Part shown: piece by piece, positions 2,951-13,475 of the stretch
How the letters are laid out: each line of letters begins with the position of its first letter
Numbering within the stretch: position 1 is the first letter of the stretch
Assembly: GCA_001784175.1 (NCBI GenBank)
Contig: MFPR01000032.1
Span: 1-13,475, forward strand
Direction: 5' to 3'
Source of the DNA: Candidatus Lindowbacteria bacterium RIFCSPLOWO2_12_FULL_62_27
Lineage (GTDB): Bacteria; Lindowbacteria; 2-12-FULL-62-27
DNA: 13,475 bases
Translations under genes and position numbers: made by a program
Notes under the pieces: generated by a model
Database searches by the model: none
Told to the model about the DNA's origin: nothing
Seen by the model: only the letters and a program-made list of their open reading frames with translations

Positions 2951-2967
2951 ACGATACATGGTATCGT
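2951..2967. promoter_or_regulatory. Perfect palindrome centred on a candidate start codon
   Basis: ACGATAC (2951-2957) and GTATCGT (2961-2967) are exact inverted 7-mers, and the three bases between them are the ATG at 2958. It could be an operator at the head of the regulatory operon or an mRNA hairpin that buries this start and leaves ATG 2976 for use. Confidence 0.5.
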
Positions 2968-3500
2968 TCCCTGCGATGGTGAAGCGCACTGCTACGCGGG
3001 AGATACGCATCCATGAGATGACGGGCGGCGTCATCCGCCGCCTCGCGACCGCACTCGGCCGGTTGTTGATTCCTGCGAAACAAAATCGGCTTCTCAATGT
3101 GCTTCAATACTGCGTGCTCGAACTTTGTTCGAACGCGGTCGAAGCGGCCGGGCGGCGGCCCGTGCGGGTCGGGCTGGGCGTGCGCGGCGGGCGCCTCGAG
3201 GTCGAGGTGTGCGGCGATACGCGGGCCCGCCCGGCGGATTGGCGGAACATTCAGAAGCAGCTTGCGGAAGGGGCGCGGCCCGGCGGCATCCGGGCGGCGC
3301 TTCTTGGCAGAAAAGGCGGCGGTGTTCGGACCGGCGTCGGCATCGTCAGTGTGATGACCATTCTCCGAAAACTCGGCGGATCTCAGAATTCGCTCACCTA
3401 TAGAAAAAGCAAAGACGGAATCGTGACAGCGCGGCTTTGTGTCCGGCCGCCGAAGTCCAGAAAGGAAGGAACGTCTCATGGAATACGCGGCGGAAATTGA
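2958..3500 (+). CDS. GHKL-type anti-sigma / serine-kinase-like regulator, degenerate ATP site
   Basis: This cytoplasmic protein of 180 residues (174 if ATG 2976 is used) resembles SpoIIAB/RsbW-type HATPase_c proteins. Its N-box is E55-x-x-x-N59 within VLELCSNAVEA. A strand pair at 67-85 (VRVGLGVRGGRLEVEVCGD) leads to the place where the D-x-G-x-G box should be, but here it reads CGDTRARP. A G2-like segment TGVGIVSV (125-132) is followed by a terminal strand GIVTARLCV (154-162). In this family the protein binds a sigma factor or other target and phosphorylates a STAS protein. The altered G1 box makes kinase activity uncertain. Neither start has a Shine-Dalgarno, and the first ATG sits in a palindrome. 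The gene overlaps the STAS gene by 23 bases. The usual neighbouring sigma factor is missing. Confidence 0.75.
   Translation: MVSFPAMVKRTATREIRIHEMTGGVIRRLATALGRLLIPAKQNRLLNVLQYCVLELCSNAVEAAGRRPVRVGLGVRGGRLEVEVCGDTRARPADWRNIQKQLAEGARPGGIRAALLGRKGGGVRTGVGIVSVMTILRKLGGSQNSLTYRKSKDGIVTARLCVRPPKSRKEGTSHGIRGGN
3461..3470 (+). promoter_or_regulatory. Ribosome-binding site fixing the STAS start
   Basis: AAAGGAAGGA lies seven bases before the ATG at 3478. It settles that codon as the start in preference to the in-frame upstream start at 3439, which would add 13 basic residues unlike any STAS protein. Confidence 0.75.
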
Positions 3501-3825
3501 GAGGGCGAAGGACCGGAAGGACGTGACGGTGGTGAAAGTCCGGGGGTTCCTGGACGAGCGGACTTCCCTCGAACTCGAAAAGCGCATTCGGGAGGAGATC
3601 GAGGGCGGCCGCGCGAAGATCGTCTTTGACTGCGGCGATCTCAAGTACATCTCCAGCCGGGGATTCGCCGTCCTCGTGAGCCTGCACGGCCGCGCGCTGT
3701 CGAAGGGCGGCGACCTGATCCTTGCGGAACTCAAGGCGTCCATTCACGAAGTGTTCACGGTGCTGAACCTGGCGGATCTGTTTAAAATCAAGGACAGCGT
3801 TTCGCAGGCCATCGAAGCGTTTTAG
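3478..3825 (+). CDS. STAS-domain anti-anti-sigma factor
   Basis: At 115 residues, this is the full length of a single STAS domain of the SpoIIAA/RsbV type. The core shows VVKVRGFLDER (18-28), then IVFDCGDLKYISSRGFAVLV. S60 occupies the position of the phosphorylated serine in D-S-[ST]-G, although the preceding Asp is replaced by Ser and the following Ser/Thr by Arg. In partner switching the dephosphorylated form binds the anti-sigma protein and releases that protein's target, while the phosphorylated form does not. The upstream gene encodes the presumed anti-sigma partner and the downstream gene the presumed phosphatase, so the set is complete apart from a sigma factor. The protein starts inside the preceding gene and ends 13 bases before the next start. 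It is cytoplasmic. Confidence 0.92.
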   Translation: MEYAAEIERAKDRKDVTVVKVRGFLDERTSLELEKRIREEIEGGRAKIVFDCGDLKYISSRGFAVLVSLHGRALSKGGDLILAELKASIHEVFTVLNLADLFKIKDSVSQAIEAF

Positions 3826-3838
3826 GTTCGCCGCCGCC

Positions 3839-5398
3839 ATGCGCGTGTCCATCCGGGTCAAATTCGTCCTCATCATCCTCGGCCTTCTGCTCGTCACGCT
3901 CGGCGTGAACTGGGCCCTGACCCTGCGTCGGCACGAGTCAATGGAGCGGAGAATCACGGCGCGCCAGCAGGAACTCCTTCATCGGGAACTGCAGCGCCGG
4001 GCACTCTATATTTTTTCCATGCTGACGGCCAATGCCGAGTCGCTGGCCGTCGACGATTATCTCACCCTCAACACATTCGTCCGCCAGGCGAAGGAGGCCT
4101 CGCCGGATGTGCGGTACATCCATCTGGTTCAAAACGGCAAACTCGTGGTGCCCATTCCCGAAGACGGCGTCGCTCCCGACTACGCGCCGGTGGAGGGCCT
4201 CGAGGCGCCCGACACGGGCCTCGCGTATCAGGACCATACGGCGGAGGACGGCGAGCCGATGGTGGTGGTGGCCGGCCCGATCGTGGACCGCGCGGCCAAT
4301 CTTCGGGTCGGATTCGCGTACGTCGGATTTTCGAGCCGGAAAATCGTGGAGGAGCTGGCGCGGACGCAGGTCGATTTTCGTGAAGCGGGCGCGCGCACGC
4401 GGTGGGAGATCACGGCGCTGGCCCTCGGAGTCCTCGCGCTTGGATTCGTATCGTCCCTCCTGATCGTTCCGCTGATGATCCGCCCCATCCGCAGGCTGGC
4501 GGCGAGCGTCCGGCGGGTCGGCGAGGGCGATCTGGAACACCGCGCGACGAGGCTCTCGAACGACGAGGTCGGGGACCTGGCGGACCATTTCAACGACATG
4601 GTGGTGAACCTCAAGAAGGCGCAGGAGGACCGGATCGAGAAGGAGCGGATGAAGCAGGAGATGGAGGTGGCGATGGAGATTCAGCGGTCGCTGTTTCCGC
4701 AGTCCGTGCCCAAGACGCCGGGCTTTTCCTGCGGCGCGGTCTACGCGGCCGCGCGCGAAGTCGGTGGCGACTACTACGATTTCATCCATCTCGATTACGA
4801 CGGGGAGAGCCGGCTCGGAATCGTGGTCGCCGACGTGACGGGCAAGGGCGTGGGCGGGGCGATCATGATGGCCGAGACGCGCAGTGTGATGCGGGCCCAG
4901 ATTCAGAAGGCCGGCACGCCGGCCGAGGCGCTGAAACTCACGAATTCCGTGCTCCTGCCGGACATGCAGAAAGGCATCATGTTCGTCACCATGTTCTACG
5001 GCATGCTCGACTGGCGTTTGGCCCGGATGGAAATCTGCAACGCCGGCCACAATCCCACGATGGTCTACCGCGCGGCGCGGGACGGGTTTGAGAAAATCAC
5101 TTTGCGAGGCAAACCGCTGGGCGTTCTTCAGAACGACGAGTTCGATAAACACATCGAGTCGGCGGCGGTCGCGCTCGATTGCGGGGACATCCTCGTCCAG
5201 TACACGGACGGCGTCGGCGAAGCCGCCAACGCGAAGGAGGAGGCGTTCGGGATGGACCGGTTTCTGTCCGTGATCCGCAAATGCCGACTGTCCGACGCGC
5301 AGGTGATCGCCGACCGGGTGTTGGATGAAATCGGCGCCTTCGCCGGCGGCTGGCCGCAGTCGGATGACATCACCGTCGTGATCGTCAAACGGGCGTGA
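3839..5398 (+). CDS. Membrane sensor, HAMP and SpoIIE/RsbU-type PP2C phosphatase
   Basis: This 519-residue inner-membrane protein has a first membrane helix at about 7-27 and an extracytoplasmic sensor of about 160 residues, probably Cache-like, with YIHLVQNGKLVVPIP at 93-107 and EPMVVVAGPIVD at 139-150. A second helix follows at about 191-213, then a HAMP domain (214-266) and a coiled linker with the family motif MEIQRSLFPQSVP (279-291). The SpoIIE phosphatase domain runs from 296 to 518. Metal-binding acidic residues are in place: GGDYYDF (309-315), ADVTGKG (331-337), YTDG (455-458) and SDDIT (508-512). It should dephosphorylate the upstream STAS protein in response to an external signal. 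The ATG at 3839 is 13 bases after the STAS stop and immediately precedes an Arg-containing N-terminus. The last bases overlap the next gene as GTGA. Confidence 0.95.
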   Translation: MRVSIRVKFVLIILGLLLVTLGVNWALTLRRHESMERRITARQQELLHRELQRRALYIFSMLTANAESLAVDDYLTLNTFVRQAKEASPDVRYIHLVQNGKLVVPIPEDGVAPDYAPVEGLEAPDTGLAYQDHTAEDGEPMVVVAGPIVDRAANLRVGFAYVGFSSRKIVEELARTQVDFREAGARTRWEITALALGVLALGFVSSLLIVPLMIRPIRRLAASVRRVGEGDLEHRATRLSNDEVGDLADHFNDMVVNLKKAQEDRIEKERMKQEMEVAMEIQRSLFPQSVPKTPGFSCGAVYAAAREVGGDYYDFIHLDYDGESRLGIVVADVTGKGVGGAIMMAETRSVMRAQIQKAGTPAEALKLTNSVLLPDMQKGIMFVTMFYGMLDWRLARMEICNAGHNPTMVYRAARDGFEKITLRGKPLGVLQNDEFDKHIESAAVALDCGDILVQYTDGVGEAANAKEEAFGMDRFLSVIRKCRLSDAQVIADRVLDEIGAFAGGWPQSDDITVVIVKRA

Positions 5399-6906
5399 CC
5401 GCGCCGGTGCGGCCGCCGTCCCCGGAGGATTTTGCGCGCGCGTTTGAGGGGCTGGTCGACGTCGCGGTTGTCGCCGATCCCGACGGGCGGATTCTGGCCG
5501 CGAACGAGGCGGCTGCGGCGTTTTGGGGATACCGGCGGGACGAGTTGGGCGGCCGTCGGATGGACGACCTGATCTCGGCCGACGGGGCGGCCCAGCGGGA
5601 GTTTCTCTTGGAGAAAGTGCGTTCGGAAGAAGGCGTCAAGGAAGTATGCCTCATCTGCAGGACGAGGGATGACCGCCGGGTCCCGATGTTCTTTTCGGTG
5701 TCGGCGCTGAAAGACGGCCGGCGGCTGTCCGCGCTCGTGTACATCGGGCGGGAGATGGCGGAAACGCGGAGTCTCCTGGAGCAGACGGCGGGCGCCGCGG
5801 TCAGTTCCAGAAAAAAAGTGGAAGAGCTGCAGCTCGAAAACGTGCGGCTTCGGGCGGGCTGGCGCGTCGGATCGCAGACGCTGGTGTACGTCAGCGCCGC
5901 CATGCAGTCGATCATGGACACGGTCACCCAGATCGCGCGGTTCGATGTGCCGGTCCTGATCCACGGCGAGACGGGGACCGGCAAGGAGCTGATCGCGGGC
6001 GCGATTCACCAAAGTCCCACCAATCTCAGACGCGACCGGCCTTTTGTCGCCATCAACTGCGCGACCCTCGCAGCGCCGTTGCTTGAAAGCGAACTCTTCG
6101 GATACGCGCGCGGCGCGTTTACGGGTGCGGTGGGCGCCAAGCAGGGAATTCTGGAGGCGGCCTCCGGCGGGACGTTGTTTCTCGACGAAGTCGTCGAAGC
6201 GCCGCCGTCGATCCAGGCCAAGCTGTTGCGGGTCCTGGACACGGGCGAGTACATGAAACTGGGCGAGACGCGCAGCCGGCGGGCGGACGTTCGATTGATC
6301 GCGGCCACCAACAAGAGCGTCCCGGACGAAATCGCCGCCGGGCGGTTTCGGGAGGATTTATACCAGCGGCTGAAGGGCGTCGAAATCCACGTCCAGCCGC
6401 TGAGGGATCGTCCGGAGGACATTCCGGTGATCGTGCGGTTTTATCTCGACGAGTTCAACCGGACGATGAACAAGCAGGTGTCGATCAGCGACGAGGCGTT
6501 CCGGGTATTGGAGGGGTGCGATTGGATCGGGAATGTCCGGGAACTGCGCAACGCGATCCAGCAACTCGTGGTGATGGCGGCGTCCGTCCGTCCGGTGGTG
6601 ATCGGGCGGAAGGATCTGCCGGATGCCATCGTGCGTCCCGATCATCGGACGCGGAGTCGCGTGAAGCTGGAGTGGAGCCCCGTTCGATTCACGTCAGACG
6701 CGGGTGAGATTCTGTCCATCTTCGATGTGCGTGCGGCGGCGCTCCGGCAGGTGGAAAAGGAGTATCTGATCCATCTGCTCAAGCGGCACAACGGAAAGAT
6801 CATTGCGGCGGCGCGGGCGGCGGGGGCCAGCCGGCGGTTCATGCATCAGAAGTTGAAGGAACTGAAGATCAGTCCGAGGGCGTTTAAGACAGGGAAGAAG
6901 GCGTGA
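5395..6906 (+). CDS. PAS-containing sigma-54-dependent transcriptional activator
   Basis: This 503-residue enhancer-binding protein has a PAS domain at about 15-122 (VVADPDGRILAANEAAAAFWGY) and a short coiled linker at 138-153. The AAA+ domain spans about 160-395, and a Fis-type helix-turn-helix lies at about 451-492. Key parts are intact: Walker A GETGTGKE (191-198), the sigma-54 contact loop GAFTGA (240-245), Walker B GGTLFLDE (258-265) and the FREDLYQRL segment (318-326). Oddities are WIGNVREL where WPGNVREL is usual, and DEVVEAPP where DEIG[ED] is usual. The GTG start shares GTGA with the phosphatase stop, so it is translationally coupled to a partner-switch set. There is no receiver domain, so control must come from the PAS domain or from a protein partner. 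A perfect sigma-54 promoter lies about 300 bases downstream. Confidence 0.95.
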   Translation: MTAPVRPPSPEDFARAFEGLVDVAVVADPDGRILAANEAAAAFWGYRRDELGGRRMDDLISADGAAQREFLLEKVRSEEGVKEVCLICRTRDDRRVPMFFSVSALKDGRRLSALVYIGREMAETRSLLEQTAGAAVSSRKKVEELQLENVRLRAGWRVGSQTLVYVSAAMQSIMDTVTQIARFDVPVLIHGETGTGKELIAGAIHQSPTNLRRDRPFVAINCATLAAPLLESELFGYARGAFTGAVGAKQGILEAASGGTLFLDEVVEAPPSIQAKLLRVLDTGEYMKLGETRSRRADVRLIAATNKSVPDEIAAGRFREDLYQRLKGVEIHVQPLRDRPEDIPVIVRFYLDEFNRTMNKQVSISDEAFRVLEGCDWIGNVRELRNAIQQLVVMAASVRPVVIGRKDLPDAIVRPDHRTRSRVKLEWSPVRFTSDAGEILSIFDVRAAALRQVEKEYLIHLLKRHNGKIIAAARAAGASRRFMHQKLKELKISPRAFKTGKKA

Positions 6907-6935
6907 GATAAGGCTCGGTGAACAGAGAAACCATT

Positions 6936-6975
6936 GGACACGAACGGACACGAACGATCACGAACGGACACGAAT
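6936..6975 (+). repeat. Four-copy 10-bp tandem repeat
   Basis: Four head-to-tail decamers: GGACACGAAC, GGACACGAAC, GATCACGAAC and GGACACGAAT. Three of the four are identical except for the last base of the final copy; the third differs at two positions. The array lies 30 bp after the activator stop codon. Confidence 0.9.
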
Positions 6976-7054
6976 GAAACATTCAACCCGTGTGAACGAT
7001 GTAATTGTCTATAATGCGCACATAATTGCACGTTTATTGTTTGTTACATATCAT

Positions 7055-7075
7055 TTAAATAATCAGAATATTATA
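7055..7075. promoter_or_regulatory. Candidate upstream activator site A
   Basis: This 21-bp imperfect dyad is centred on 7065, with 7 of 10 arm positions complementary (core half AATA-TC facing GA-TATT). It matches site B (7161-7181) at 19 of 21 positions. Its centre is about 164 bp before the predicted start of transcription, a typical distance for an enhancer bound by a Fis-type sigma-54 activator. The identity of the binding protein is inferred. Confidence 0.5.
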
Positions 7076-7160
7076 TAAATTAACAGCGTAATTTGTATAC
7101 TTTTATTCCCCTTTTTTGGCCAACCCGGAAATGTCCTGCCGAGAGGAGTACATCTAATTA

Positions 7161-7181
7161 TTAAATAATCAGAGTGTTATA
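7161..7181. promoter_or_regulatory. Candidate upstream activator site B
   Basis: This is the second copy of the 21-bp dyad, differing from site A by two A-to-G changes, exactly 106 bp further on (close to ten helical turns). It is centred near -58 relative to the predicted start of transcription. Confidence 0.5.
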
Positions 7182-7202
7182 ATTTTTGTCTGGTTCCTAA
7201 AC

Positions 7203-7218
7203 TGGCACGCAAGTTGCA
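7203..7218 (+). promoter_or_regulatory. Sigma-54 (RpoN) promoter
   Basis: TGGCACGCAAGTTGCA matches the sigma-54 consensus TGGCAC-N5-TTGC[AT] at every fixed position, with GG (7204-7205) and GC (7216-7217) separated by the required 10 bp. Transcription should start near 7229 and read into the giant gene. The operon just upstream encodes a sigma-54 activator. Confidence 0.85.
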
Positions 7219-7308
7219 ACGATATATATTATAGTGGATATAAATGCCGCAAGAGTAATTAATGAAATCGTGAAATGCATCTGTGAACGGCGGGTAGACC
7301 ACCCTTTG

Positions 7309-7339
7309 TCCCCCCATGTATTAGGGGGAAAGAGGGGGG
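7309..7339 (+). promoter_or_regulatory. Leader hairpin with competing G-runs
   Basis: TCCCCC (7309-7314) pairs with GGGGGA (7324-7329) around a 9-nt loop. The same C-run (7310-7315) could instead pair with a second G-run (7334-7339), which is the Shine-Dalgarno-like stretch before the TTG start at 7351. The pairing options are visible; a regulatory role is speculative. Confidence 0.4.
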
Positions 7340-7350
7340 TTGACCCGGTT

Positions 7351-10300
7351 TTGTTGTCCCCTCAGAAAACGGTATTGTCTGTGATTTTGGCAGCGGGCTT
7401 CTTGTGCATGGCCGCGTCATCCGAGGCCAAGATGATGTCGGATACGATAGTGGTTTATCAGGTGCAGATCGGGGGAGATACGGGTGGGGCAACTGGCGAG
7501 TTTGTTACGCTATTTAATCCTCGGCCAGAGTCCGTCAGTTTGACGCCTTACAAAATCGTAAAGGCCTCCAGTGCCGGTGGAAGCATAGCAAATTGGACCG
7601 CTTCACTTGCGGGAACCATCGGCCCGTTTGGATTCTATAGGATCGTGGCCAAAAACGCCGGCAACGTTTTGTTGTCAACAAAAGACGAGGCGACATCTGT
7701 CAACGCCGCCCTCGCCGCCAGTAATCAAATCGCGTTGGTGAACAGCACCCAAACGGACACCCGGGATCGTTTCGGATGGGGCGCCATTACGGTTCCCATG
7801 TACACCGACACGCCACCGCACAATACATCCGACCCCGGCGACAACCAGTCCTTTATGCGGCTTGCGGATACTTTGGCCGGCGGCATGATCAAGACGAACA
7901 GCAATAGGGCCGATTTTGTGATCAACGCGCCAACAGACACGTTCAACACTGCCACCCGACACCGGCGCGTGGTTTTCGACTGCAAAACGCCCCCGGGCGC
8001 CGTCACGGTGGGCACGGCGTTCAATCTTTACTGCACGGCCACGCTGGTGGTCGGCGATACCTACTTTCTTCAGGATTCCAACGTGATTACTGATTATTCC
8101 GGAGACTCCGCGTGGGCGGACTTGACCGGTTGGGGAACGGACACCCTTGTGGTGAACAGTTCAAACGATGCGGCCGACACGACCGATGTGTTTTCCGCCG
8201 GCCGGCGGACCATGACGCTGCGGTTCACAGCCGGCGTGGACGGATCGGTTCAGCGGCTGGTGATCAGCGATGCGTATTGCACGGGGTTCGTTTCGATCAC
8301 CCTCAACAGCCCGGCCGACACCATTCAGTTCCGCGTAGCCGCATCGCAGGGGACCCATGAAACGAGCACGGCGAGTTTCACCACTTCGGGCACCGACAGC
8401 GGGGCCGCGGCGGACACGGTGGTGGTGGCGTTTCGAAACGGGATCGACACGCAGATCGTGACGCACAGTTCCAGCGGCGTGTGGGCCTGTACCGGCAACT
8501 ACACGTTTCGCGACATGGACGGCGGCGAGACCGTGTTTGCCTACGTCTACAAAGGCGGGGTGCAGAAGGCCAACGACACGATCACGATTTTATACGACGG
8601 CACGTCGCCGAAAATATCGGCCATCGCGAACACCGGTGTGATCAGCGGGTCCAGCTACAACAACACCAGCCAGACCGTCATCTTCTACGTCGTCGACACC
8701 GGCGCCGGATTCAGTTCCAGTTCCGGATGCACGCTCCATTACCAGCAGATCGGCGGATCCACCATCAACGACACGGCCCAGGCGACGGAGAACAACGCGG
8801 CGGGCACCTGGACTGTCAGCGCGTCCATTCCGTTCAATCTGGTGACCGCCACCGACACCCAGTGGAAGTTCTGGCTGACGTGTTCGGACGACGCCGGAAA
8901 CAGCTCGCTGTCGAGTTCGCTGTCTCCGCCCTATACCGCGAACAACAACGGCACCGCGACCATCAATGTGATCGGCGCGCGCGATGTCGTCATCAGCGAG
9001 GTCATGTGGGACGGCAACGACAGCGAGTATATTGAGCTGTACAACACGACGAATGCGGACGTCGATTTGAGCGGCTGGACCCTGTCCGATTATGTGGGAG
9101 GGGGCGCCACGGGATTTACGTACACCTTTGTGGCGGGAGACAGCATCCCGGCCTACGGCCATTTTCTCCTACTTCAGGGCAGCGGCGGGTCGGGCGCGTT
9201 GGGCGTCAACGATCTGGTGGGTGCCGGGGGCAAGCGAGAGGCGGGGATCGACACGGCGGAGACCGACGATTTTGACGATGAAGATCTGGATGACCAAGGC
9301 GACTCCGTGGGGCTGAGGGACAACAACGGCAATCTGATCGACACGGCCGCCTTCACGTCGGGTTGGCCCAAGGGCTCGGGCGGCACGACCGACGACGTGC
9401 GGGTTTCGATGGAGCGCAAGCTGACGGGTGTCAACTTCCAAACGTCGGCGGACGGATCGACCGCCAGTGAGTGGGACTCGCATTTGATGAGGGCCGGTCA
9501 TCACGGGCGGCGGCACGGAACGCCCGGGCACGCCAACAGCATCAACGTGCCGTACAGCGATGTGTCTCCGAAAAATCCCGTCATGGAAGGCGGGCGCGGC
9601 AAGTGGACGTTCACGGTGACGAACGGGCCCACCGCGTTTGCCGGCGGCCGGGTCGTCCTGCAGATGCCGGTCGGGTGGTCCAAGCCCGGAAGCACGGCGA
9701 CGGACTCGGGATACACGACGGTCAGCATTGCCAACGGATCGATCAGCACGACGACGTTCAGCGGCCAGAGCGTCGTCGTGGACCTCACCTCGTGGACGGC
9801 GTCGACCGGTCAATTGACGGTCACGTACGGCGACGCGGCGTCGTCCGGGGACCGGAGTTCCATCGCCAAAGTCCAGTCGTCGTCGAGCGGAACGCCGGCG
9901 GCCGTGCAGCTCTTTTATGATTTCGACGGTACCTCGGTCGTGCAGGCGGGCGACAGCGGCATGGGAAACTGGGGGAGCAAGTCCGGCGACACGCTGCCGG
10001 TGGTGGACCTCGGGGGCGCGAGTGTCGACACGGTCCCGTCATCGAATCCGCGAAGTTTCATAGGGTCGGAGTACGAGCTGACATCGACGTACAGCGACTC
10101 GATCGGCCGGAAAATTTACGGGGCGCACGATTCGGTTTCGATCCGGCCGTTTCTGACAGGGTCAGACGTCGCCGACGATTCGCATATTCACGAGTACGCG
10201 AGTTTCACCGGATTCTACGATCCGTCGGCGAACGACTCGACGGAGGTCGGAGGCTGGACCAACAGTTCCGGAGAGTTCGCCGTCACGGTGCATGTCAGCG

Positions 10301-13300
10301 CCATCGCGGGGAACGACGCGCAGCTCAACCAATTCCGCCTGACGGACGCCGACAAGGGAGCCTTGTTGCGGACGTACAATGATTCGGCCCGCCTGCCGGT
10401 GCCGGTCATCAACGAGGTGGGATGGGACGGGATATCGACCGAATTTATTGAAATATATAATCCGACCCATCAAGTCCAGACGCTGTCCGGGTATCGGGTC
10501 ATCCAGGTGTCGAATATTTCCGACAGCCCGGCAAATAACGCGGCCGACCACATCGGGCCGGCGACGTTTAACTCGGTGTTCAGTATCAATCCCTTTTCGT
10601 ATGTCATCATCACAGACGCGGCCAATATCGTTCAGGACACAGCCGGCACAGATTCGGATTTTACGGACGCCCAAGACCATACGGACGATCCGGGCGACAC
10701 ACTGGTTTTGCAAAACGCGGGCGGTCAGTTTTCGGATGCAATGGGGATTTTGGGAAACGGCAATTATTACAATGGGAACACCACGGGCGACCCGGTGGCA
10801 TCGCTGTGGGCGCTGGAGCGGATCTATCCAAACCGGAGCGGTATGGACAGCGCGTCGTGGTCGGCGTCGGATTCGGGTTTGGATTTTGGCGGCACGGCCC
10901 AGAGCGGCTCGCCGGGCCGGCCCAATGCCAAGTCTCTGTTCAAGACGGAGGTTGACCGGATGGACACCTTCGTGAAGGCTGGCGACACAGGGCGGGTGCA
11001 ACTGATTCTGAAAATCGCGTCAGGCGACACCCAGCCCAACCAGCAGATCGGATGTACGGCGACAGTGGATGCATGGGCGGTTCACGGAGATTCTTCGTTC
11101 CTCGTCACGTTCGTTTTGACCACCAACGCTTACGGGACAGCACTGATCGAGATTCACCCCAGCGGCGGCAACACATCCGGGACCGTAACGGTGCGGATCA
11201 AGCAGCCCTACGGCGTGACCGACAGCGCCTACGTGGTGTTTGACCGGGGCGAGTCGCTCGTATACGTCTTTCAGGCGTCGGAAACAAATGTTTTTGACAC
11301 TTCCTCCACCAACGCGCTTCTTGTTTACGCTTGGTTTTCCGACACGATTTCCGGGCTCGATTCCACGATCATGCCGCAATTGCGGTGGAAAATCGGATCG
11401 GGCGGAACGTATTCGACGCTGGCCAACATGACGCAGTACTCGGGCGACACCTATTTGTACCGGATCGACATTTCGCCGGACTCGTGGTCGAAGATTCCGC
11501 ACGACACCGTATACTGGCAGGCCGTATGGAGGGACCGGGCGGGGAACTGGGACACGTCGCCCGACAATCATTCCCGGTCGGGCGAGTACGTCGACAACAC
11601 GCGCGCGTTCGACACGCTGGCGTCGCCGGGCGGGTCGGACACCGTGAACGGGGCCAATGCGCTCATCCGGATTCGAATGGGCGACGCCGCGCGGGACTAC
11701 TGCACCATCACGCTCAAGTACGACTCGGGCAGTTCAGGCCTGTGGACCAACGTCACGCTGGTGTCGGAGTCGGACACGAAAACGAACATCCGAACGTCTC
11801 CGTCGGGCGAGACGCTGGATTTGCGCTGGAACACCAGAGCCGACATCTCCGGCACGACGGTGGCGAGCATGCGGCTGAGGATCGAAGTATTCGACGGATT
11901 CGACACCCGAACGGATACGAGCGGGTATTTTGGACTGAACAATTACTTGAAGGTGACTCCATCGAATCCGCCGGACGGACAAGAAACCAATTCCGCGTCG
12001 GTGCGGTTTGAGTGGTCCTCGACGGTCGGCGCGGAGACCTACACATGGCAGTTGTCAAAGAGCGCGGCATTCACAACCCTCACGGACAGCGCCGTCGACA
12101 CGACCGTCACCAGCCTCATCAAGAGCCTGCCCAACGAGGATACTTTCTATTGGCGAGTGATCGGGCAGGACTCGATTTCGAATTTTGACACAACGGCCGC
12201 GCGGGGCCTGATCCTGGACACGTCGGTCGCGCAGGTGACACCATCGCAGCCGGCGGACGGGCACGAGACGACAGCGATCGACATCGTGGTGAGCTGGAGC
12301 GCGGTATCGGACAGTGTGGGGGTGGATTCCTACGCGGTGGAGGTGTCGAAGAACACGGGGTTCACGAACATCGCGTTTACGGACACGATTGACGGGGGGC
12401 TGACGAGCGACACGGTGACGGGGCTGTACAATGACACGTACTTTTGGCGGGTGCGCGGGATCGACGATCTTGCGAACGGGGGGACGTACTCGACGACAAG
12501 GGGGTTTGTGACGGACACGCTGATCGGTCAGACAAGTTTGTCGCAGCCTGCGGATGGTCATGAGACGACAGTGATCGACTTTTTGGTGATCTGGGGTGCT
12601 CTGTCGGACAGCGTCGGTATCGACAGTTACGCGGTGGAGGTATCGAAGAACACGGCGTTTACGAACGTCGCCTTTACGGACACGGTGGACGGCGCGACCG
12701 GCGTCGCGAGCGATACGGTGACCGGGCTGTACAACGACACATACTATTGGCGGGTGCGTGTGATCGACGATCTGGCGAACGGGGGAACGTATTCGAGCAC
12801 GCAGGGGTTTGTGACGGACACGATCGTGAACACGCCGAGCTTGTCGCAGCCGGCGGACGGGCACGAGACGACGGCGATCGACTTTCAGGTGAGCTGGAGC
12901 GCGGTAACGGACAGTGTGGGCGTGGACAGTTACGCGGTGGAGGTATCGAAGAACACGGGGTTCACGAGCATCGCCTTTACGGACACGGTTGACCAGGCGT
13001 TCACGGCGGACACGGTGACGGGGTTGTACAACGACACATATTATTGGCGTGTGCGAGGGATCGATGATCTGGCGAACGGGGGGGCGTATTCGACGACGCG
13101 AGGGTTTGTGGCGGACACGATCGTGAACGCGCCGAGCCTGTCGCAGCCTGCGGACGGGCACGAGACGACGGCGATCAACCTATTGGTGAGCTGGAGCCTG
13201 TCGGACAGCGTTGGGGTGGACAGTTACGCGGTGGAGGTATCGAAGAACACGGGATTCACGAACATCGCGTTTACGGACACGTTGGACGGCGCGTTCACGA

Positions 13301-13475
13301 GCGACACGGTGACGGGGTTGTATAACGACACGTACTACTGGCGAGTGCGGGCGGTGGACGATCTGGCGAACGGCGGGGGGTTTTCAAGCATGCGAGGGTT
13401 TGTGACGGACACGCTGATCGGCCAGGTGAGCCTGTCGCAGCCTGCGGACGGGCATGAAACGAGCGTGATCAACAT
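7351..13475 (+). CDS. Giant secreted protein with lamin-tail and fibronectin-like repeats (3' end outside window)
   Basis: One frame stays open to the right edge: 2,041 complete codons, no stop. From TTG 7351 the N-terminus is a signal peptide: MLSPQKTV, a hydrophobic core (LSVILAAGFLCMAAS), then likely cleavage after SEA (about residue 26). GAGGGGGG lies 11 bases upstream; GTG 7270 is an alternative but weakens the signal peptide. Lamin-tail (LTD)-like modules begin at about residues 33 (FVTLFNPRPE), 546 (VISEVMWDGNDSEYIELYN) and 1019 (VINEVGWDGISTEFIEIYN). Ig-like segments lie between and after them, and 630-652 is an acidic patch. A fibronectin-like array begins at about 1538, with near-identical units from 1632. 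Such proteins are exported and used as surface, adhesive or matrix components. No catalytic domain or anchor is visible; a C-terminal sorting signal would lie outside the window. A sigma-54 promoter lies 133 bp upstream. Confidence 0.92.
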   Translation, partial: MLSPQKTVLSVILAAGFLCMAASSEAKMMSDTIVVYQVQIGGDTGGATGEFVTLFNPRPESVSLTPYKIVKASSAGGSIANWTASLAGTIGPFGFYRIVAKNAGNVLLSTKDEATSVNAALAASNQIALVNSTQTDTRDRFGWGAITVPMYTDTPPHNTSDPGDNQSFMRLADTLAGGMIKTNSNRADFVINAPTDTFNTATRHRRVVFDCKTPPGAVTVGTAFNLYCTATLVVGDTYFLQDSNVITDYSGDSAWADLTGWGTDTLVVNSSNDAADTTDVFSAGRRTMTLRFTAGVDGSVQRLVISDAYCTGFVSITLNSPADTIQFRVAASQGTHETSTASFTTSGTDSGAAADTVVVAFRNGIDTQIVTHSSSGVWACTGNYTFRDMDGGETVFAYVYKGGVQKANDTITILYDGTSPKISAIANTGVISGSSYNNTSQTVIFYVVDTGAGFSSSSGCTLHYQQIGGSTINDTAQATENNAAGTWTVSASIPFNLVTATDTQWKFWLTCSDDAGNSSLSSSLSPPYTANNNGTATINVIGARDVVISEVMWDGNDSEYIELYNTTNADVDLSGWTLSDYVGGGATGFTYTFVAGDSIPAYGHFLLLQGSGGSGALGVNDLVGAGGKREAGIDTAETDDFDDEDLDDQGDSVGLRDNNGNLIDTAAFTSGWPKGSGGTTDDVRVSMERKLTGVNFQTSADGSTASEWDSHLMRAGHHGRRHGTPGHANSINVPYSDVSPKNPVMEGGRGKWTFTVTNGPTAFAGGRVVLQMPVGWSKPGSTATDSGYTTVSIANGSISTTTFSGQSVVVDLTSWTASTGQLTVTYGDAASSGDRSSIAKVQSSSSGTPAAVQLFYDFDGTSVVQAGDSGMGNWGSKSGDTLPVVDLGGASVDTVPSSNPRSFIGSEYELTSTYSDSIGRKIYGAHDSVSIRPFLTGSDVADDSHIHEYASFTGFYDPSANDSTEVGGWTNSSGEFAVTVHVSAIAGNDAQLNQFRLTDADKGALLRTYNDSARLPVPVINEVGWDGISTEFIEIYNPTHQVQTLSGYRVIQVSNISDSPANNAADHIGPATFNSVFSINPFSYVIITDAANIVQDTAGTDSDFTDAQDHTDDPGDTLVLQNAGGQFSDAMGILGNGNYYNGNTTGDPVASLWALERIYPNRSGMDSASWSASDSGLDFGGTAQSGSPGRPNAKSLFKTEVDRMDTFVKAGDTGRVQLILKIASGDTQPNQQIGCTATVDAWAVHGDSSFLVTFVLTTNAYGTALIEIHPSGGNTSGTVTVRIKQPYGVTDSAYVVFDRGESLVYVFQASETNVFDTSSTNALLVYAWFSDTISGLDSTIMPQLRWKIGSGGTYSTLANMTQYSGDTYLYRIDISPDSWSKIPHDTVYWQAVWRDRAGNWDTSPDNHSRSGEYVDNTRAFDTLASPGGSDTVNGANALIRIRMGDAARDYCTITLKYDSGSSGLWTNVTLVSESDTKTNIRTSPSGETLDLRWNTRADISGTTVASMRLRIEVFDGFDTRTDTSGYFGLNNYLKVTPSNPPDGQETNSASVRFEWSSTVGAETYTWQLSKSAAFTTLTDSAVDTTVTSLIKSLPNEDTFYWRVIGQDSISNFDTTAARGLILDTSVAQVTPSQPADGHETTAIDIVVSWSAVSDSVGVDSYAVEVSKNTGFTNIAFTDTIDGGLTSDTVTGLYNDTYFWRVRGIDDLANGGTYSTTRGFVTDTLIGQTSLSQPADGHETTVIDFLVIWGALSDSVGIDSYAVEVSKNTAFTNVAFTDTVDGATGVASDTVTGLYNDTYYWRVRVIDDLANGGTYSSTQGFVTDTIVNTPSLSQPADGHETTAIDFQVSWSAVTDSVGVDSYAVEVSKNTGFTSIAFTDTVDQAFTADTVTGLYNDTYYWRVRGIDDLANGGAYSTTRGFVADTIVNAPSLSQPADGHETTAINLLVSWSLSDSVGVDSYAVEVSKNTGFTNIAFTDTLDGAFTSDTVTGLYNDTYYWRVRAVDDLANGGGFSSMRGFVTDTLIGQVSLSQPADGHETSVIN
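8986..9420 (+). other. Second lamin-tail (LTD) module of the giant protein
   Basis: Residues about 546-690 begin VISEVMWDGNDSEYIELYN and continue with the diagnostic DLSGWTLSDY, then a GHFLLLQG strand and a late DSVGLRDNNGNLIDTAAF. This is the order of strands in bacterial LTD domains. An acidic insertion (DDFDDEDLDDQGD) sits before the last strands and could bind calcium. Confidence 0.8.
10405..10930 (+). other. Third lamin-tail (LTD) module of the giant protein
   Basis: Residues about 1019-1193 start VINEVGWDGISTEFIEIYN and end with GDTLVLQNAGGQFSDAMG and an SPGRPN segment, which commonly closes LTD domains. The middle (SDSPANNAADHIGP) is longer than usual. Confidence 0.8.
11962..12243 (+). 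repeat. Diverged first unit of the fibronectin-like array
   Basis: This 94-residue unit (about 1538-1631) begins SNPPDGQET and contains TYTWQLSKSAAFTTLTDS and FYWRVIGQD. It aligns with the later units in layout but is clearly diverged, so it probably predates the amplification. Confidence 0.7.
12244..13475 (+). repeat. Array of near-identical ~297-bp coding repeats (fibronectin-like)
   Basis: Units begin at 12244, 12541, 12844, 13141 and 13435, giving lengths of 297, 303, 297 and 294 bp before the edge. Each encodes SQPADGHET, then SDSVGVDSYAVEVSKNT, FTDT, SDTVTGLYNDTYYWRVR, DDLANGG and a GFVTDT linker. This is the strand pattern of a fibronectin type III domain. Many stretches are identical in DNA between units, and length changes are in multiples of three. 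The fifth unit is cut by the window edge. Confidence 0.9.

Follow-up and report, generated by a model that had tools for sequence, protein, structure and literature searches.

A local sigma-54 circuit, in which an activator encoded next door, a −24/−12 promoter at 7203–7218 and two upstream repeats switch on a giant secreted protein, is the probable reading of the analysed window, i.e. the whole 13,475-bp stretch, which constitutes contig C32, one of 44 contigs that make up a 4.39 Mb genome. According to this model, sigma-54 RNA polymerase would sit closed on the −24/−12 site, and the PAS-AAA+-Fis activator from the neighbouring operon would bind the two 21-bp repeats, centred at −164 and −58. 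Upon signalling through its input domain, the activator would form an ATPase ring, contact sigma-54 via the GAFTGA loops and open the promoter, and transcription of the giant signal-peptide/LTD/repeat protein would start near 7229. The RsbU/STAS/RsbW-like proteins of the operon may feed the signal to the activator. The initial annotation had proposed a dedicated circuit leading from an external signal via a membrane sensor and the activator to a surface protein; its promoter and the proposed pairing with the neighbouring activator gained support, whereas the sensor step is suggested by operon membership and the surface location by a signal peptide and repeats. The pairing is well supported, because the repeat pair is unique in the genome, a second locus (C38) repeats this layout with a unique pair of its own, and loci combining activator, site and secreted protein occur in another genus (G001).

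Activator, promoter and paired repeats

Along the plus strand, C32 carries an operon-like run of genes for a divergent HATPase, a STAS protein, a HAMP-SpoIIE phosphatase and the PAS-AAA+-Fis activator, followed by a 445-bp gap and the giant frame. The activator gene (5395–6906, plus strand) has a GTG start overlapping the stop of the preceding gene, and its product combines PAS (PAS_9), AAA+ (Sigma54_activat, PF00158, 7.8e-62) and HTH_8 domains. With AAA+ Walker motifs, GAFTGA and a Fis-type HTH it was classified as an enhancer-binding protein, in agreement with the initial annotation of the nearest upstream gene, and among proteins of solved structure NifA and NtrC-type activators come closest. 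In total, 17 strong Sigma54_activat proteins were found in the genome; a response-regulator paralog on C19 shares 55% identity with the window activator across the AAA+ and HTH region. The rpoN gene, whose presence was a check on the promoter assignment, is located on C6 and is complete, with AID, CBD and DBD domains all present. Further features of the window are tandem GGACACGAAC repeats at 6936–6974, 3′ of the activator gene, with similar CACGAA-rich tracts upstream of C19 and C40 genes, as well as adjacent DUF4160 and DUF2442 genes at 1347–1881, a small gene pair of the kind often called toxin-antitoxin-like.

The predicted promoter (TGGCACGCAAGTTGCA, 7203–7218, plus strand) is, as had been annotated, an exact match with 0 mismatches, with GG at −25/−24, GC at −13/−12 and exact spacing, placing the predicted +1 at 7229. 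From base composition, the expected number of exact sites was 0.011 for the window and 0.0002 for the 445-bp gap. Genome-wide, the exact pattern was matched 2 times versus 4 times for a reversed control pattern, i.e. without over-representation, so that the sequence match by itself is weak proof of a promoter; the case is carried by position and context. The other exact match (C6:181112–181127, minus strand) was considered as a promoter antisense to the gene of a 9114-aa giant and was dropped: its sequence is complementary to the tmRNA leader, and since the same 16-mer precedes tmRNA in another genus (15/16 bases), it is almost certainly no sigma-54 promoter and was not counted as one. The C32 site is thus the sole exact site in the genome preceding a protein gene. 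The leader itself (AGCAAAAASTGTGCCA; L002 / L162) is conserved in two genera immediately before tmRNA, and the complementary sequence mimics a perfect sigma-54 promoter. Sites were scored with a matrix based on the published consensus, which served for ranking only.

An AT-rich regulatory stretch (6978–7260) with 32.5% GC, compared to 59.6% for the contig, surrounds the promoter; of all 283-bp segments in the window, only 0.25% have a GC content this low. It contains two copies of a 21-bp dyad-like sequence (TTAAATAATCAGANTNTTATA) as a direct repeat: candidate upstream activating site 1 (TTAAATAATCAGAATATTATA, 7055–7075, plus strand), an ATAAT-N6-ATTAT dyad centred at −164, and candidate site 2 (TTAAATAATCAGAGTGTTATA, 7161–7181, plus strand), a dyad of the same type with one mismatch, whose centre at −58 is unusually near the promoter. 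Both are 106 bp apart, corresponding to ~10 helical turns. Their likeness was reached by 0/500 dinucleotide shuffles, and at ≤3 mismatches the motif has exactly 2 copies in the 4.39 Mb genome, both in this gap (control, 0). Being genome-unique, the repeats were therefore taken as a candidate activator-binding pair, and they look like the paired binding site of a Fis-type dimer. This pair, absent from the initial annotation, is the strongest support for the circuit.

Parallel loci and competing explanations

The closest parallel was found on C38 (locus L066, minus strand), where an activator gene lacking an input domain (11302–12453) is followed by a gap of ~600 bp, a sigma-54-like site (AGGTACAGTTTTTGCA, 10731–10746, minus strand) and a giant LTD gene, the product of which opens with an MSDTLV stretch similar to the C32 giant. 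The gap holds its own repeat pair (TGAKAAATAWTTCTCTATWCA), unlike that of C32 and with exactly 2 genome copies, both located there, and the sequences downstream of the C32 and C38 promoters can be aligned (TTGCA...TATATAAAT). From the existence of two unique repeat pairs, a private activator for each such giant is suggested. On C40, GGGCATACCCTTTGCA and then a secreted glycoamylase-like protein come after a MshEN-type activator gene, and on C3 TGGAACCTTACTTGCT and then a secreted protein come after a signalling cluster that includes an activator gene; the sites at C38 and C40 are well below the sigma-54 consensus. A remnant of a giant 5′ end on C19 is preceded by TGGGTCGGATTTTGCA, while no sigma-54 site was detected at the intact giant 3 kb beyond it. 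This remnant (L067 about 19540–19620 and L068 about 2650), lying ~3 kb upstream of the intact gene, suggests a rearrangement or duplication.

At 12 other activator loci of this genome screened with one script, no intergenic site scoring ≥12 was found within 2.5 kb; three activator loci, including C40 and C19, were outside that script and were judged separately. Giants with readable 5′ ends that do not adjoin an activator gene (C23, C31, C14, C6, C20 and C40:27–38 kb) showed no comparable site. One sigma-54 site common to all giants was accordingly rejected, as such sites were seen only in the class with an MSDTLV-type N-terminus and LTD (C32, C38 and the C19 remnant). Repeats preceding the C40, C3, C19 and G001:C168 sites were likewise rejected as activator pairs, since they were within shuffle range or weak. 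Separately, MshEN-domain sigma-54 activators are encoded at L124 (5778–7310), L151 (3521–5146) and L122 (6474–8030), two of the three adjoining secreted-protein genes with sigma-54-like sites; in other proteins, MshEN is a c-di-GMP-binding domain.

In G001, a 3.4 Mb genome of the same family and another genus with ~15 activator genes, a search for TGGNACN5TTGCW yielded 11 near-consensus matches. Two of these precede genes for secreted proteins, one of them with LTD domains, at a distance of ~145 bp from an activator gene; by simple arithmetic, the expectation for sites within 200 bp of such a gene is ~0.02. At G001:C168, a divergent TGGAACACTAGTTGCA lies 144 bp from a MshEN activator gene and before a secreted PLD-LTD protein. 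At G001:C291, TGGAACCCTTTTTGCA follows 147 bp after a response-regulator-type activator gene and precedes a secreted protein. The fusion at G001:C168, together with a divergent PLD gene adjoining the C38 activator gene, hints at a functional tie between PLD and LTD. Among related genomes, activator, sigma-54 site and secreted protein stand together at two G001 loci, but the gene order of the C32 locus is absent in both relatives compared (G001 and G002). The C38 activator has an ortholog in G002 with 81% identity, the target of which is unreadable because the gene sits at a contig end, and no ortholog of the window activator was found in a GTDB r220 scan. The lineage is poorly sampled, with almost no relatives available.

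These loci bear on two other explanations. The sigma-54 promoter might be real and yet respond to a different one of the 17 activators, e.g. the C19 response-regulator paralog with its similar C-terminal HTH, the repeats then serving as bending sites of the IHF/HU type. IHF stays a rival for the repeats because both copies match its consensus WATCAAN4TTR with one mismatch; IHF-type sites should recur, however, and the 21-bp motif is restricted to the C32 gap. Since a different activator at C38 is accompanied by a different unique pair, and activator genes adjoin sites at several loci, control by another activator is considered unlikely. Alternatively, the sigma-54 match could be coincidental and the giant gene be driven by a housekeeping promoter. 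This would be in line with the missing genome-wide enrichment, with the tmRNA origin of the other exact match and with one weak overlapping sigma-70-like site (CTGGCA-17-TATATT, 9/12), but the number of sigma-70-like sites is at the shuffle mean, and the small number of exact sigma-54 sites expected in the gap as well as the parallel loci and unique repeat pairs render a chance match quite improbable.

The giant protein and the upstream operon

The giant frame (7351–13475, plus strand) runs off the contig, so that only its 5′ part is available. Its start was inferred to be TTG 7351 or 7354, as the open frame extends back to 7201. The product begins with a plausible signal peptide (MLSPQKTVLSVILAAGFLCMAASSEA) and contains three LTD stretches above the Pfam cut-off (2.6e-39, 134 bits) and ~99-aa tandem repeats, encoded by a 297-bp tandem repeat; fn3 reached 23.0 bits versus a cut-off of 25, and an AlphaFold model of one repeat (pLDDT 58.7) was too poor for fold classing. 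Export of the protein and a location at the cell surface are suggested by the signal peptide and the repeats. Function and regulation of giant LTD/repeat proteins are obscure. The genome harbours a whole family of such secreted giants, with frames up to 9114 aa, and a common ~99-aa repeat for which 150 matches were scored, on contigs C6, C9, C13, C14, C15, C19, C20, C22, C23, C32 and C38, many of which end within giants. For giant LTD/repeat proteins C32 offers a candidate regulator-target pair from a lineage of which hardly any relatives have been sampled, and private activators would mean that families of huge exterior proteins may be switched singly, one by one.

The leader preceding the giant gene can form a strong hairpin over the G-rich ribosome-binding region (7292–7346, plus strand; −33.8 kcal/mol, z −2.4; 3/200 shuffles as stable). 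That the gap acts mainly post-transcriptionally, with this very stable structure hiding the only strong SD-like stretch and setting expression from a weakly regulated promoter, is hardly credible, given that the C38 leader showed no significant fold and the hairpin was not found at the other loci compared.

Regarding the input to the proposed sigma-54 circuit, the gene directly upstream of the activator encodes a HAMP-SpoIIE phosphatase (RsbU-like PP2C; 3839–5398, plus strand; SpoIIE 1.1e-44, HAMP 2.4e-13) with two TM segments read from the sequence. It is the candidate membrane sensor, and its co-operonic position would link it to the activator. It is preceded by a STAS anti-anti-sigma-like protein (3481–3825, plus strand; 1.6e-17; a longer frame opens at 3439), which aligns with TM1442 and SpoIIAA and keeps the phospho-acceptor serine position, and by a divergent, RsbW-like HATPase (2958–3500, plus strand), the gene of which overlaps the STAS gene. 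The phosphatase and STAS assignments are clear, the HATPase_c_2 match (1.7e-4) is below the cut-off, and no clear match of the ATPase to solved structures was found. Together, the three genes of this one operon resemble an RsbU/RsbV/RsbW partner switch and could gate the activator. In a tentative and rather doubtful version, the ATPase would directly bind the PAS-AAA+ protein and keep it inactive until the dephosphorylated STAS protein replaces the activator, so that an external signal would reach a sigma-54 promoter with no histidine kinase involved. Recurrence of the same operon elsewhere was rejected, as none of the phosphatase homologs (C13, C38:23715, G001:C207 and G002:C105) has an activator gene next downstream. 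Whether sigma-54 activators can come under the control of a partner switch is a question that this operon makes accessible.

Relation to known sigma-54 systems

In systems of the PspF and NorR type, the sigma-54 activator gene lies next to its target. Circuits with the enhancer-binding-protein gene beside the target were described in the Desulfovibrio vulgaris regulome (PMC4641369), and C32 is like these systems in the predicted −24/−12 promoter, the candidate upstream repeats and the neighbouring GAFTGA AAA+ Fis-type activator; it differs in its presumed target, a secreted LTD/repeat giant from an unsampled lineage. Sigma-54 as a controller of the bacterial exterior was put forward by Francke 2011 (PMC3162934), and site-bearing targets here were largely secreted proteins as well; well-known genomes were searched in that study, and the Lindowbacteria lineage and LTD giants were not found in the parts consulted.

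The SypG/SypE/SypA system of Vibrio fischeri (PMC4517449) has parts resembling those of C32, namely a sigma-54 activator and a STAS protein with its kinase/phosphatase, which govern an exterior product. SypG is, however, a response regulator acting in a phosphorelay, and the STAS protein SypA acts after transcription, whereas at C32 the phosphatase, STAS protein and ATPase are encoded by separate genes that share an operon with a PAS activator. BerB of Burkholderia cenocepacia (PMC5552954), a sigma-54 activator tied to surface/biofilm output, is comparable to the MshEN sister loci, where this domain suggests a c-di-GMP input; BerB is without an N-terminal input domain, and the window activator carries a PAS domain instead of MshEN. 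The proposed C32 circuit belongs to a known type of control, sigma-54 governing the cell exterior via a neighbouring activator, and stands out by its unusual target and an unusually clean pair of genome-unique candidate binding sites.
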